A DNA stretch of 64,000 nucleotides from Hypericibacter terrae. Its GTDB lineage: Bacteria; Pseudomonadota; Alphaproteobacteria; Dongiales; Dongiaceae. The notes below the pieces were generated by a model. That model had not been told where the DNA came from. It did no database searches and saw nothing but the letters and a program-made list of their open reading frames with translations. This document shows, in pieces, positions 13,872 through 55,517 of the stretch (within the stretch, counting starts at the first letter, position 1; the number at the start of each line of letters is the position of its first letter). The translations under genes and the position numbers were made by a program. The stretch spans positions 806,001 to 870,000 of the forward strand of contig NZ_CP042906.1 in NCBI RefSeq assembly GCF_008728855.1, in the 5' to 3' direction.

Positions 13872-13951
13872 GTCATCCCCGCGAAAGCGGGGACCCAACT
13901 CTAAGCTTGGCACCTTGGATCAAGATGGATCCCCACTTTCGTGGGGATGAC
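13872..13951. repeat. 80-bp inverted-repeat element, copy 1
   Basis: Starts GTCATCCCCGCGAAAGCGGG and ends with the near-complement CCCCACTTTCGTGGGGATGAC, separated by ~28 bases including AACTCTAAGCTTGG. Copies 2 and 3 lie at 51123-51202 and 51298-51376. It sits in the 101-base gap between convergent dagK-like and tldE genes. Each end forms its own hairpin, and the ends are complementary to each other. No coding capacity, so it is a REP/MITE-type dispersed element. Confidence 0.8.
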
Positions 13952-13961
13952 CGCTGCGCGG

Positions 13962-15716
13962 TCACTTCCCCGCGATCGTCATCCCGTCGACACGCGTGGT
14001 CGGCGCGTCGGTGCCGTATTTGAACTCGAGGTCGTTGGCGGGCTCGAGGTTCAGGAACATGTCCTTCAGATTGCCGGCGATGGTGACCTCGCTCACCGGA
14101 TAGGCGATCTCGCCCTTCTCGATCCAGAAGCCCGAGGCGCCGCGGCTGTAGTCGCCGGTGAGGCCATTGACGCCGAAGCCCATCAGGTCGGTGACGAAGA
14201 AGCCGCGATTGATGTCGCCGATGAGCTGGGCCGGCGTCTTCCTGCCGGGGCTGAGGCTGAGATTGGTGGGCGAGGGCGAGGGCGGCGAGGAGGTGCCGCG
14301 CGAGCCATGGCCGGTGCTCTTGAGCTTGAGCTGGCGCGCGGAGCGCAGGTCGAGCACCCAGCTCTTGAGCACGCCGTCCTCCACCAGATTGCGCCGCTGC
14401 GCGCCGATGCCCTCGCCGTCGAAGGGCCGCGAGCGCATGCCGCGCCGGCGCAAGGGATCGTCGGTGATGTCGAGGCCCTTGCGCAGCACCTGCGTGTTCA
14501 TCCGGTCTTTCAGGAAGCTGGTGCCGCGCGCGATCGAGGAGCCGTTGATGGCGCCGACCAGATGGCCGACCAGGCTGTTGGCGGTGCGGGTTTCGAACAC
14601 CACCGGGACCTTGGCGGTGTCGGCCTTGCGCGGCTTCAGGCGGCGCACGGCGCGCTCGCCGGCATTGCGGCCGACGGAAGCCGGGTCTTTGAGGTCGGAG
14701 CGATAGACCGCCGAGGTGAAATCGTCGTCGCGTTCCATGCCCGTGCCTTCGCCTGCCAGCACCGAGACGCCGAGGCCGAAGCGCGAGACCTGATAGCCGC
14801 CGGCAAATCCGTTGGAGGCGGCGAGGCTGAACTGGCTGCGGCTCCAGCTGGCTTCCGAACCTTCGGAGTTGGTCACGCCCTTGACGGCGCGTGCGGCCTC
14901 TTCGCCGATTCGCGCGGTCTCGAGCAGCCATTCGGGGTCGGGCTCGGTCGGATCGGCCATGTCGAGCCCCACCCAGCCTTGCGCGATCTCGGCCGGATCG
15001 GCGATGCCGATGAAGGGGTCCTCGGGCACGCTGCGCGCCATCGCCACGGCGCGCTCGACCAGCTCCGCCAGAAGGGCGGCATTGAGATCGCTGGTGGAGA
15101 CCACGGCCTGGCGCTTGCCGACCAGGACCCGCAGTCCCAGATCCTGCCCTTCGGCGCGCTCGAGCTTCTCCGGGTTGCCGAGGCGGATGGCCTGCGACAG
15201 CGACACGCCGCGCGCCAGCACCGCGTCGGCCGCATCGGCGCCGGCACGCCTGGCGGCGGCGATCAGGTCGGTGAGGAGATTGAGATCGCCGGCCTGGCTG
15301 GAGGCCTGGGTGGCGGCCGTCGTCGTCGCCTTGGTCTTGGCCTTGGGCGCCGGCCGCGGGGCCGCGGCCTCGCGCGGCAGCGGGCGATGCATCGGCTTGC
15401 GGGCGACAGCGTCGCGGCCCTGCGGCCCGCGCTTGTCGTTCGGCGGGCGGCGCGGTGCCGGGGTCGGCGCGATCTTCGCCTTGGGCACGGCCTTGGGCTT
15501 GGGTGCCGCCTTCGCCTTGGCCTTTGGCGCCCGCTTTGGGGCGGCCGCCTTCTTCTTGGCCGCCGGCCGCTTCACCGCCGTCTTCTTGACGGCGGTCTTC
15601 TTCTTGGCGGGTCTGCCCTTGGCGCCCGTCGCCTTCTTCTTGGCGGCGCTCTTTTTCTTCGGCGTCGCCGTTTTGGCGCGGGTCTTGCCGGGACGGCGGG
15701 TCTTGCGGGCGGCCAT
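13962..15716 (-). CDS. pmbA: TldE/PmbA metalloprotease subunit with a histone-H1-like N-terminal tail
   Basis: 584 residues, against ~450 for the usual TldE/PmbA. Residues ~143-584 match the family: LGLRVLVGKRQAVVSTSDL, VPVVFETRTANSLVGHLV, RRRGMRSRPFDGEGIGAQRR, GASGFWIEKGEIAYPVSEV and ending PTTRVDGMTIAGK. TldE partners TldD (present at 33215-34648) in a heteromeric protease; TldE itself lacks the zinc site. Residues 1-142 are an extraordinary Lys/Ala/Pro-rich low-complexity tail (AAKKKAAAPKRAPKAKAKA) resembling bacterial histone-H1-like proteins. The ATG at 15716 follows a GGAGAG ribosome site. The tail is in frame, with no stop or other start candidate near residue 142. Confidence 0.88.
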   Translation of the reverse strand: MAARKTRRPGKTRAKTATPKKKSAAKKKATGAKGRPAKKKTAVKKTAVKRPAAKKKAAAPKRAPKAKAKAAPKPKAVPKAKIAPTPAPRRPPNDKRGPQGRDAVARKPMHRPLPREAAAPRPAPKAKTKATTTAATQASSQAGDLNLLTDLIAAARRAGADAADAVLARGVSLSQAIRLGNPEKLERAEGQDLGLRVLVGKRQAVVSTSDLNAALLAELVERAVAMARSVPEDPFIGIADPAEIAQGWVGLDMADPTEPDPEWLLETARIGEEAARAVKGVTNSEGSEASWSRSQFSLAASNGFAGGYQVSRFGLGVSVLAGEGTGMERDDDFTSAVYRSDLKDPASVGRNAGERAVRRLKPRKADTAKVPVVFETRTANSLVGHLVGAINGSSIARGTSFLKDRMNTQVLRKGLDITDDPLRRRGMRSRPFDGEGIGAQRRNLVEDGVLKSWVLDLRSARQLKLKSTGHGSRGTSSPPSPSPTNLSLSPGRKTPAQLIGDINRGFFVTDLMGFGVNGLTGDYSRGASGFWIEKGEIAYPVSEVTIAGNLKDMFLNLEPANDLEFKYGTDAPTTRVDGMTIAGK

Positions 15717-15764
15717 GGGCTCTCCGGGGATGCGATGGGGAGGAGGGGGAATCAAGGCGGCAGC

Positions 15765-16256
15765 TTACCGTGGCTCGAGCCCGTAGCGAAAGACGGGCAG
15801 AAACCGGCCGGGATCGATCTCAGATGGGACGGCGCCGGCCGTCCGGCAACCCATCTTGAGGTAGAAGCCCGACGCGTTGGGGTCGCTCACCACCACCAGC
15901 TCGCGATGACCCAGCGCCCGCGCGATGGCGACCGCATGGTCCCACAAGGCGCGGCCGACCCCCTGGCCGATGGCGTCCGGCTCGACGAAGAACATGTCGA
16001 GCCCCAGCGCGTCCGCCTCGGGCTCGACGCCATAGAAGCCCAGCGGCCGGCCGCCGGTGTCGGTCGCGACGTAATAGGGATGGGCCCGCAGCTTCTCCGG
16101 CATCAGGGTCATGGCGGCGCGGCAGCGGGCGAGGAAGCTCGCCTCATAGCCCCAGACCGCCTTGGAGCGCAGCGACAGCTCGGTCAGGGCCTGGGCCTCG
16201 TCGGCGCGCGCGCGGCGGATCGTGATGATCGGCGCCGGGGCGGCCGCATGCCTCAT
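15765..16256 (-). CDS. GNAT-family N-acetyltransferase
   Basis: 163 residues with a GNAT fold: [18 protein letters not shown] at the start, [39 protein letters not shown] (acetyl-CoA-binding loop QGVGRAL), [17 protein letters not shown]. The substrate is unknown. The start overlaps the UbiD-family gene stop as ATGA, making it the last gene of a three-gene minus-strand run (Cys-rich protein, UbiD family, GNAT). Confidence 0.86.
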
Positions 16257-33214: not shown

Positions 33215-34648
33215 TCAAGCCGCGGTGCCGCCCACGGTCATGGCATCGATCTTGAGCGTCGGCTGGCCGACGCCGACCGGCACGCCCTGGCCTTCCTTGC
33301 CGCAGGTGCCGATGCCGCCATCGAGCTTCAGGTCGTTGCCGATCATGCTGACCTTGTTCATCGAATCCGGGCCGTTGCCGATGAGCGTGGCGCCCTTGAC
33401 CGCACGGCCGACCTGGCCGTTCTCGATCAGATAGGCCTCGGTGCAGGAGAAGACGAACTTGCCCGAGGTGATGTCGACCTGGCCGCCGCCGAAATTGACG
33501 GCATAGAGGCCCTTCTTCACCGAGGCGAGGATCTCCTTCGGATCATGCTTCCCGGCGAGCATGTAGGTGTTGGTCATGCGCGGCATCGGAATATGGGCGA
33601 AGCTCTGCCGCCGGCCGTTGCCGGTCGGCTTCATGCCCATGAGCCGGGCGTTCTGCCGGTCCTGCATATAGCCCTTCAGGATGCCGTCCTCGATCAGCAC
33701 GTTGTATTGCGAGGGCGTGCCCTCGTCGTCGATCGTGAGCGAGCCGCGGCGGTCCTGGATCGTGCCGTCGTCGACGATGGTGACGCCGGGGGAGGCAACG
33801 CGCTGGCCCATGAGGCCGGCGAAGGTCGAAGTCTTCTTGCGATTGAAATCGCCCTCGAGCCCATGGCCCACGGCCTCATGCAGCATCACGCCCGGCCAGC
33901 CCGGCCCCAGCACGACTTCCATCTCGCCGGCGGGTGCCGGCACCGAACCCAGATTGACCAGCGCCTGGCGCAGCGCCTCGTCGACGCCGTCCTTCCAGCT
34001 CTGCTCCTTGACGAAACGGCCATAGGCCTCGCGGCCGCCGGTGCCGAAGCTGCCGGTCTCCATCCGGTCGCCGTCGCCGACCACGACCGCGATGTTGAGG
34101 CGCACCAGCGGCCTTATGTCGGCCAGGCGCTGCCCGTCGCCGCGGATGATCTGCACCGCCTGCCAGACGCCCGTCATCGAGGCCATGACCTGGCGCACGC
34201 GCGGATCCTTGGCTCGCGCATAGGCGTCGATCTCGGTCAGCAGCTTGACCTTGTCCTCGAACGGCACCTCGTTCAGCGGGTTCACGTCGGTATAGAGCGA
34301 GCGGTTGGTGCCCTTGGGCGGGAGCGCCAGGGTTCCGCCATGGCCGCGATGGACCGTCTTGACGGTTTCGCCGGCGCGCCGGATCGCGGCCTCGGAGAGC
34401 TCGCTGGCATGGGCGTAGCCCGCGCGCTCGTCGGCGATGGCGCGCAGGCCGAAACCCTGCGTGGTGTCGTAGGACGCGCTCTTGAGCCGGCCGTCGTCGA
34501 AAGCGAGCGCCTCCGACTGGCTGTATTCGAGGAACAGCTCGCCATCGTCGGCGCCCTTGAGCGCGTCGGCGACGACGCCCTCGATGCGGCTCCGGTCGAG
34601 GCCGGTGCGGTGGAAAAAGAGCTCGTCGGTCTTGCTGAGATCGGCCAT
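33215..34648 (-). CDS. tldD: TldD metalloprotease subunit
   Basis: 477 residues, catalytic partner of TldE in a cytoplasmic heteromeric protease that cleaves unfolded peptides. In enterobacteria it processes microcin B17 and CcdA. The zinc motif is intact: MLHEAVGHGLEGD gives H257, E258 and H262 (HExxxH), and the later CTEAYLIENG segment supplies the conserved Cys. It is ~18 kb from tldE, and immediately upstream of the divergent cytochrome oxidase locus. No N-terminal extension like that of TldE. Confidence 0.95.
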   Translation of the reverse strand: MADLSKTDELFFHRTGLDRSRIEGVVADALKGADDGELFLEYSQSEALAFDDGRLKSASYDTTQGFGLRAIADERAGYAHASELSEAAIRRAGETVKTVHRGHGGTLALPPKGTNRSLYTDVNPLNEVPFEDKVKLLTEIDAYARAKDPRVRQVMASMTGVWQAVQIIRGDGQRLADIRPLVRLNIAVVVGDGDRMETGSFGTGGREAYGRFVKEQSWKDGVDEALRQALVNLGSVPAPAGEMEVVLGPGWPGVMLHEAVGHGLEGDFNRKKTSTFAGLMGQRVASPGVTIVDDGTIQDRRGSLTIDDEGTPSQYNVLIEDGILKGYMQDRQNARLMGMKPTGNGRRQSFAHIPMPRMTNTYMLAGKHDPKEILASVKKGLYAVNFGGGQVDITSGKFVFSCTEAYLIENGQVGRAVKGATLIGNGPDSMNKVSMIGNDLKLDGGIGTCGKEGQGVPVGVGQPTLKIDAMTVGGTAA

Positions 34649-51122: not shown

Positions 51123-51202
51123 GTCATCCCCGCGAAAGCGGGGACCCAACTCTAAGCTTGGTGCGTTGGATCAAGATGGGTCCCCGCTTACGCGGGGATG
51201 AC
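51123..51202. repeat. 80-bp inverted-repeat element, copy 2
   Basis: Nearly identical to copy 1 at 13872, with GTCATCCCCGCGAAAGCGGG at the left and GTCCCCGCTTACGCGGGGATG at the right. It lies in the 374-base gap between the RimJ-like gene and yqgE (51035-51408). Confidence 0.8.
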
Positions 51203-51297: not shown

Positions 51298-51376
51298 GTC
51301 ACCCCCGCGAAAGCGGGGCCCAACGTTACGCTCGCAGTGCTGGATTAAGATGGGTCCCCGCTTTCGCGGGGATGAC
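51298..51376. repeat. 79-bp inverted-repeat element, copy 3
   Basis: Left end GTCACCCCCGCGAAAGCGGG, right end CCCCGCTTTCGCGGGGATGAC. The centre (AACGTTACGCTCGCAGTGCT) differs from copies 1 and 2, while the ends stay conserved. It sits 32 bases from the yqgE stop. Confidence 0.8.
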
Positions 51377-55007: not shown

Positions 55008-55517
55008 TCAGAACATCATTCCTTCCTTCACCGCCCTGATCGCGTCGCGCGCGAGCTGGTCGGCGCGTTCGTTCTCGGGGTGGCCGGAATGGCCGCGGAC
55101 CCATTCCCACTGAATCTGGTGGGGCGCCACCGCGGCTTCGAGGCGCTGCCAGAGATCGACATTCTTGACCGGCTTCTTGTCGGCGGTTTTCCAGCCGTTC
55201 TTCTTCCAGCCGTTGATCCAGCGCGTGATGCCGTCCTTCACATAGGTGCTGTCGGTCGAGAGCGTCACCGCGCAGGGACGGCGCAGGCTCTCGAGCCCCA
55301 TGATCGCCGCCATCAGCTCCATGCGGTTGTTGGTGGTGGCACTCTCGCCGCCCGACAATTCCTTCTCGGTCTCGCCATAGCGCAGCACGGCGCCCCAGCC
55401 GCCGGGGCCCGGATTGCCGCTGCAGGCGCCGTCGGTGAAGATCTCGACGCGGGACTTGGTCTTCTCCTTCGGCGCCGCTTCTTCCTTGGGCTTCTTCGCC
55501 GCTGCCTTGGCGCTCAC
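55008..55517 (-). CDS. rnhA: Ribonuclease HI with a short basic N-terminal tail
   Basis: 169 residues. Degrades RNA in RNA-DNA hybrids. Catalytic residues are present: D in [12 protein letters not shown] in [10 protein letters not shown] in LSTDSTYV and D in [10 protein letters not shown]. The first ~22 residues ([20 protein letters not shown]) form a Lys/Ala/Glu-rich extension not needed for the fold. Overlaps thrB by 4 bases. Confidence 0.95.

Follow-up and report, generated by a model that had tools for sequence, protein, structure and literature searches.

A histone H1-like N-terminal tail on the TldE (PmbA) peptidase subunit of Hypericibacter terrae

Why should a peptidase subunit carry a long tail resembling those of bacterial histone H1-like proteins, and is that tail made at all? 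These questions are raised by a tldE/pmbA gene in a stretch of 64,000 nucleotides of the Hypericibacter terrae genome (G000), positions 806,001 to 870,000 of contig NZ_CP042906.1, hereafter called the window. TldD/TldE peptidases are widespread and, to our knowledge, their normal substrates and cell location are poorly known outside the cases of microcin B17 and CcdA. A search of the open-access literature found no description of H1-like or lysine-rich tails on TldE/PmbA; the H1-like tail on TldE appears to be new, whereas the TldE core and H1-like tails on other proteins were known already.

The gene occupies positions 13962..15716 on the minus strand, with its ATG at 15716 and its stop codon at 13962-13964, and it encodes 584 amino acids. 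Residues 1-142 (15291..15716, minus strand) form a tail rich in Lys, Ala, Pro and Arg which continues in frame into the TldE core of residues 143-584 (13965..15290, minus strand). The core carries PF01523, PF19290 and PF19289, with PmbA_TldD domains 1-3 scoring 40.1, 50.4 and 250.5 bits against Pfam cut-offs of 20.9, 20.9 and 22, and it aligns with E. coli PmbA (5nj5_B) at E = 3.1e-82, so that the preliminary description of a complete TldE preceded in frame by a 142-residue Lys/Ala/Pro tail is borne out. In keeping with a non-catalytic role it has no HExxxH motif, and its predicted model superimposes on structures 3qtd and 5nj5_B with a TM-score to target of 0.94-0.96. The best NCBIfam match was the equivalog PRK11040.1 (metalloprotease PmbA), but at 320.2 bits it falls below the cut-off of 438; the protein is a PmbA homologue outside the strict range of that model and is filed as TldE on the basis of its Pfam domains, its fold and the missing HExxxH. 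Between tldE and a convergent lipid-kinase-like gene lies a pair of inverted repeats (GTCATCCCCGCGAAAGCGGGGA) at 13872-13951, with two further pairs at 51 kb (51123-51202 and 51298-51376); within 1.24 Mb of the genome the sequence is matched 27 times, and it is probably a dispersed palindromic element.

The tail consists of 26% Ala, 23% Lys, 15% Pro, 11% Arg, 9% Thr and 2% Ser, and 4 of its 142 residues belong to the bulky or hydrophobic set FWYILMC. With Lys and Arg together at 33% (rounded) and only three Asp or Glu among the 142 residues, it has a net charge of +44, and its calculated pI of 12.0 raises that of the whole protein to 10.5, compared with 6.3 for the core. Almost all of residues 1-131 have AlphaFold pLDDT values below 50, whereas most of the core exceeds 90, although the other 37 alignment rows have no tail, and this lack of depth in the tail columns alone lowers pLDDT there. 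Searched by itself against Pfam and NCBIfam, the tail gave no match up to E = 1. It shares with the H1-like tails of the AlgP/PhaF/Hc2 type a Lys/Ala/Pro-rich and strongly basic composition, few acidic or bulky residues and predicted disorder, and the likeness to H1-type tails proposed earlier is a fair one in these predicted respects. As modelled, the tail thus gives the non-catalytic subunit of TldD/TldE an intrinsically disordered, polycationic extension. Segments of the PASK type, which undergo lysine polyphosphorylation, are rich in acidic residues and in Ser beside Lys; this identity was considered for the tail and rejected, its content of Asp, Glu and Ser being unfit.

Close relatives retain the tail at the same locus, which was the check that the preliminary description had proposed. 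Within the family of H. terrae (f1) the gene is present in 16 of 17 genomes and tails occur in three of them: H. terrae itself, G001 from the same genus (core identity 86%), with an in-frame tail of 165 residues, and G002 from another genus (core identity 75%), with one of 220 residues. The other 13 have no tail and show 6-13 ordinary residues ahead of the core. Directly upstream of tldE in the window lies a gene (15765..16256, minus strand) which we take to encode a GNAT-like acetyltransferase, the family name being our own reading, and it has the same place in the tailed G001 and G002 and in the untailed G003. Farther upstream, ubiD is found in G000, G001 and G003, the G002 contig being too short to show it. 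On this comparison the tail lies at the 5' end of tldE within an otherwise conserved neighbourhood. Fusion with a stand-alone H1-like gene was considered as its origin and rejected: only about 105 bases separate the GNAT gene from the core in G003, which leaves no space there for such a gene, and no convincing duplicate of the tail was found in G000. When the tail sequence was used as a query against G000, it retrieved itself and one weak match (E = 0.02, four stops), although a low-complexity query makes for a weak search and this one missed the G002 tail.

The start of the tail is preceded by a Shine-Dalgarno-like GGAGA (15721..15725, minus strand), recognised from sequence and pairing energy. 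This ribosome site (CCGGAGAGCCC) is well spaced from the ATG and has a pairing energy of -5.5 kcal/mol with CCUCC, against values of +1.5 to -1.2 kcal/mol for the five remaining in-frame starts, which lie in the tail and the first part of the core. The good ribosome site attributed to the tailed gene is therefore confirmed, and the tail starts of G001 and G002 have comparable values of -5.0 and -5.5 kcal/mol, respectively. Moreover, G002 has no ATG, GTG or TTG between residue 1 and residue 244, which is inside the core, so that the core there could be reached only through the tail, barring an unusual start codon, and translation beginning near residue 142, one of two outcomes said to count against the tail, finds no footing in that genome. 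The other was that a separate H1-like gene had been joined to tldE by an assembly error. An artefact of this kind, whether from assembly, a frameshift or a wrong start call, is in our view very improbable: nothing in its favour was found for G000, which is a single contig of 5.89 Mb with one good ribosome site, at the tail ATG, and against it stand the same joint in G001 and G002, the missing start codons in G002 and the narrow gap in G003.

A further reading is that one gene yields two forms, the full tailed TldE and a shorter one starting at an internal in-frame ATG at residue 109 (15390..15392, minus strand). That ATG is kept with its surroundings in G001 (residue 133) and, in PMC11005335, pmbA of Salmonella and E. 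coli is reported to use alternative starts and to give N-terminal proteoform pairs. In G000 no ribosome site precedes the internal ATG (+1.5 kcal/mol), the site in G001 is weak (-3.1 kcal/mol), and G002 has no such start; we consider the production of two forms quite unlikely. Judged from these sequence signals, the tail is real and translated.

The statement in the preliminary description that known TldE proteins lack such a tail stands for most of them and fails for members of two other families, designated f66 and f78. In a class-level sample, 280 of 385 genomes matched TldE and, among the matches listed, 20 loci with long frames were read; four carried tails, three in family f66 (G200, G293 and G370) and one in f78 (G093). 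In a phylum-level sample, 297 of 398 genomes matched and no new long tail was seen in the 30 loci read among the matches listed, genomes such as G347, G724, G775 and G823, which are listed with open frames above 530, being left out. The tail of G093 is the only one among the eight f78 genomes, counted leaving out second tldE copies in G468, G469, G470 and G377. These four genomes each carry two tldE-like copies side by side, as in G470 (C1:56778-59446; L254 and L257).

Family f66, presumably Reyranellaceae, although this is a guess, provides the most extensive series. The gene was found in 72 of its 75 genomes and, of 74 matches listed, 71 TldE loci were read, two of them from G457; G414 (cut) and the second locus of G450 were left out, and L262 of G081, standing beside the 71, has a 19-residue tail. 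The shortest tail has 9 residues and the longest 149; 17 loci reach 40 residues or more, 28 have 20-39 and 25 fewer than 20, while one locus (L238) is cut before its start. This graded series argues for growth in place and against fusion. Even the short tails are distinctive: at least two Lys occur within the first ten residues in 68 of the 70 f66 proteins with a start and in none of 141 distinct other cores, and when Lys or Arg is counted the figures are 70 of 70 and 9 of 141. The 70 include L226, which is cut by a contig end so that its listed start is not real, and the comparison cores, taken from outside f66 and the known tailed proteins, were started at the nearest ATG. Four tails of genus g171 in f66 have ribosome sites of -4.7 to -5.0 kcal/mol and G093 one of -3.0 kcal/mol, whereas the four checked in genus g72 of f66 are poor (-1.0 kcal/mol), which makes their exact starts less sure. 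In a quick tree built from 94 cores, six state changes are needed to account for tails of 40 residues or more, and the three tailed groups stand apart; support is weak on 32 of its 89 inner branches and reaches 98 for the tailed f1 clade. This pattern reads as tails having arisen at least three times separately, with repeated lengthening or shortening within f66. Among all the TldE proteins read, tails are confined to a few groups and most have none.

How the tails evolve bears on whether they have a role. For G000 and G001, 139 tail codons could be aligned, encoding 99 identical residues, with differences at codon positions 1/2/3 of 28/18/42. The tail has a dN of 0.175, a dS of 0.50 and a dN/dS of 0.35, against 0.093, 0.375 and 0.25, respectively, for the core, and the third-position excess, together with a frame kept in three genomes, suggests more than chance. 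For f66 the median dN/dS was 0.24 (0.15-0.42) in tails and 0.07 in cores, based on 55 pairs from 11 rows whose tails have 42-117 residues; dS was usable in 52 of the pairs. The tails thus change faster than the cores yet below the neutral rate, under a constraint weaker than that on the core and with length left free. In all 13 tails compared, which were hand-picked, Lys exceeds Arg while Arg exceeds Lys in the protein's own core (Fisher p 0.02 to 5e-9); for G000 the Lys:Arg counts are 32:15 in the tail and 17:38 in the core. Since Lys codons would oppose the mutational push in GC-rich genomes, we take this as a sign of selection for lysine. SPKK-like motifs number 11 in 19 tails (0 to 2 each), compared with about 3.3 in shuffles; they are absent from nine of the 19, including those of G001 and G002, and the excess, being largely one motif inherited within f66, seems to offer no firm signal.

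The frequency of similar tails on other proteins was assessed with a 40-residue filter on about 994 ORFs of G000 (1.24 Mb), about 298 of G001 (0.4 Mb) and about 310 of G370 (0.4 Mb). Of the five G000 matches we judge two to be wrong frames, which leaves three convincing tails, on TldE, on an asparaginase II and on a TIG-domain protein; G001 gave two and G370 none. The asparaginase II (PF06089; L193:15839-17014, plus strand, equivalent to G000:C1:5515839-5517014) has an N-terminal tail rich in Lys and Ala, some 50-65 residues long, which occurs in exactly the three genomes with a tailed TldE (L351, L352 and L353) and is absent from 12 other family members read, a partial match in G016 being left out and G012 giving no match. 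The window's clade therefore appears to tend towards adding such tails, though they are rare among its genes. In some untailed relatives, of genus g6 (L361, L362, L363 and L365) the asparaginase II has a His-rich N-terminus, with a run of ten His in L365. The TIG-domain protein (L144:4420-7314, minus strand) is large, with a Lys-rich stretch near its N-terminus and a HEFGHN motif which we read as zinc-protease-like, and one of the two G001 matches (L386:4147-5013, minus strand) is a Lys/Ala-rich C-terminal tail on what presumably is an endonuclease III. RNase HI in the window (55008-55517, minus strand), for which a small Lys/Ala-rich tail had been proposed, does have an N-terminal extension of about 20 residues, but this is composed of Lys, Ala and Glu and, with three Glu, is of mixed charge and not H1-like.

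These observations can be set against near-neutral low-complexity growth, whereby slippage adds Lys/Ala/Pro units at a tolerant N-terminus, with no specific role, and selection merely purges harmful changes. The freedom of length between relatives fits it well, as do a dN/dS higher in tail than in core, the pentamer-like expansions around APKK seen by eye in the f66 tail L223, and the unrelated asparaginase II tailed in the same three genomes, which suggests that the clade may be prone to such growth; the G000 tail itself has only short repeats, imperfect at the DNA level. Such growth accounts less readily for the consistent choice of Lys over Arg against the preference of the tails' own cores, for dN/dS values well under 1, for the early lysines of f66 and for the rarity of tails elsewhere in the three genomes screened. 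We regard it as a real possibility, if one on the less likely side.

The presumed partner gene, tldD (33215..34648, minus strand; about 477 amino acids), lies about 18 kb from tldE in the window, is untailed and carries the catalytic HExxxH motif as HEAVGH. According to PMC5810440, the active site is in TldD, within a hollow heterodimer into which unfolded N-termini enter, and the structure led its authors to infer that the enzyme takes in such ends, N-terminus first, when they are at least 15 residues long, in a cleft described there as having no sequence preference. A disordered N-terminus of 142 residues would fit that rule, and the tail could then be a self-substrate, as the preliminary description had suggested, or a gate, threaded into its own or a neighbouring TldD chamber and either trimmed or competing until displaced. 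With Pro at about every seventh residue it should, however, disturb the main-chain beta pairing in the cleft; 53 of the 71 f66 loci have tails shorter than 40 residues, 25 of these being shorter than 20, and gating would not demand Lys over Arg. N-terminally His-tagged E. coli TldE, which in the same source was used in work reporting cleavage, showed the expected size, although it was purified apart from TldD and so does not inform on the complex. Self-processing or gating is, on these grounds, improbable.

A link between the tail and known substrates was also considered and rejected. The CcdA family, an E. coli substrate with a link to DNA, was found in none of 12 genomes, whereas the control search gave matches in E. 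coli; YcaO occurs in three of the 12 (G004, G093 and G444), of which G093 is tailed, and no microcin-type YcaO was detected in G000-G002.

The explanation we favour, tentatively and at slightly less than even confidence, is that the tail, through its charge, anchors the TldD/TldE peptidase to a polyanion such as nucleoid DNA. The tail would hold the heterodimer on the polyanion, nucleoid DNA being the first candidate and RNA or polyphosphate the alternatives, and would thereby concentrate the peptidase where its substrates are; the chemistry of TldD would be unchanged, since a tail on TldE leaves the active site alone. Here we infer the pairing of tailed TldE with TldD, the polyanion binding and the tethering role. 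The H1-like composition and predicted disorder make binding to nucleic acid or polyphosphate plausible, by analogy, and the tether is favoured by the high net charge with few acidic residues, the shift in pI between core and whole protein, and the contrast between a tail predicted to be disordered and a well-folded predicted core. It is favoured, too, by recurrence (3 of 16 own-family genomes, 17 of 71 f66 loci at 40 residues or more, and one of eight f78 genomes), by the lysine preference and the constrained tail dN/dS of 0.35 and 0.24, by the SPKK-like excess, though its f66 motifs are largely inherited, and by the presence in the window of a TldD with HExxxH, together with the use of an N-terminal tag on E. 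coli TldE. Against it count the variable length and the many untailed TldE, which indicate that the tail is dispensable for the basic enzyme, the faster evolution of tails than of cores (0.24 versus 0.07 in f66), the tails without SPKK-like motifs, the absence of the DNA-linked substrate CcdA and of YcaO in G000-G002, even though tailed G093 has one, and the poor ribosome sites in g72. A broader proposal, which we consider rather doubtful, is that H1-like tail growth made the peptidase nucleoid- or polyphosphate-bound in at least three alphaproteobacterial lineages and did likewise for asparaginase II in the window's clade, assembling a set of amide-bond-cutting enzymes on one polyanion. The natural series of tails, 9 to 149 residues long, together with tail-less sisters, provides a direct route to asking where TldD/TldE works, and H1-like tails recurring on enzymes whose substrate is not DNA offer a useful test between a functional tether and tolerated low-complexity growth.

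Among known systems, the closest are the TldE/PmbA proteins of E. coli (5nj5_B) and P. aeruginosa (3qtd), which share the whole core with its three Pfam domains, lack HExxxH and are accompanied by a TldD gene; these structures show 36% identity and a TM-score of 0.96 to target, but the PDB chains listed have 443-457 residues (495 for TldD) and none has a 142-residue N-terminal extension. The resemblance of the tail itself is to AlgP and PhaF of Pseudomonas, which likewise have long disordered Lys/Ala/Pro-rich tails of variable length, although theirs are C-terminal with regular KPAA repeats, whereas the TldE tail of the window stands at the N-terminus of a peptidase subunit and appears irregular. 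In PMC9239181, AlgP is described as having a net charge of +55 and as sitting on polyphosphate granules, the spacing of which requires its H1-like tail, and fragments of that tail bind DNA in vitro, which favours a tether for a tail of similar composition. Hc2 and similar proteins of Chlamydia, Bordetella and others are lysine-rich and change in length by repeat gain and loss (PMC2848022), much as the TldE tails vary in length, but they are DNA-binding histone-like proteins and not enzyme subunits. Finally, Streptomyces topoisomerase I and mycobacterial Ku combine another job with a lysine-rich low-complexity region, and PMC6821194 reports that in prokaryotes such regions are over-represented among DNA-binding proteins and help to hold DNA, which again favours the tether; those two proteins act on DNA, whereas TldD/TldE acts on peptides.
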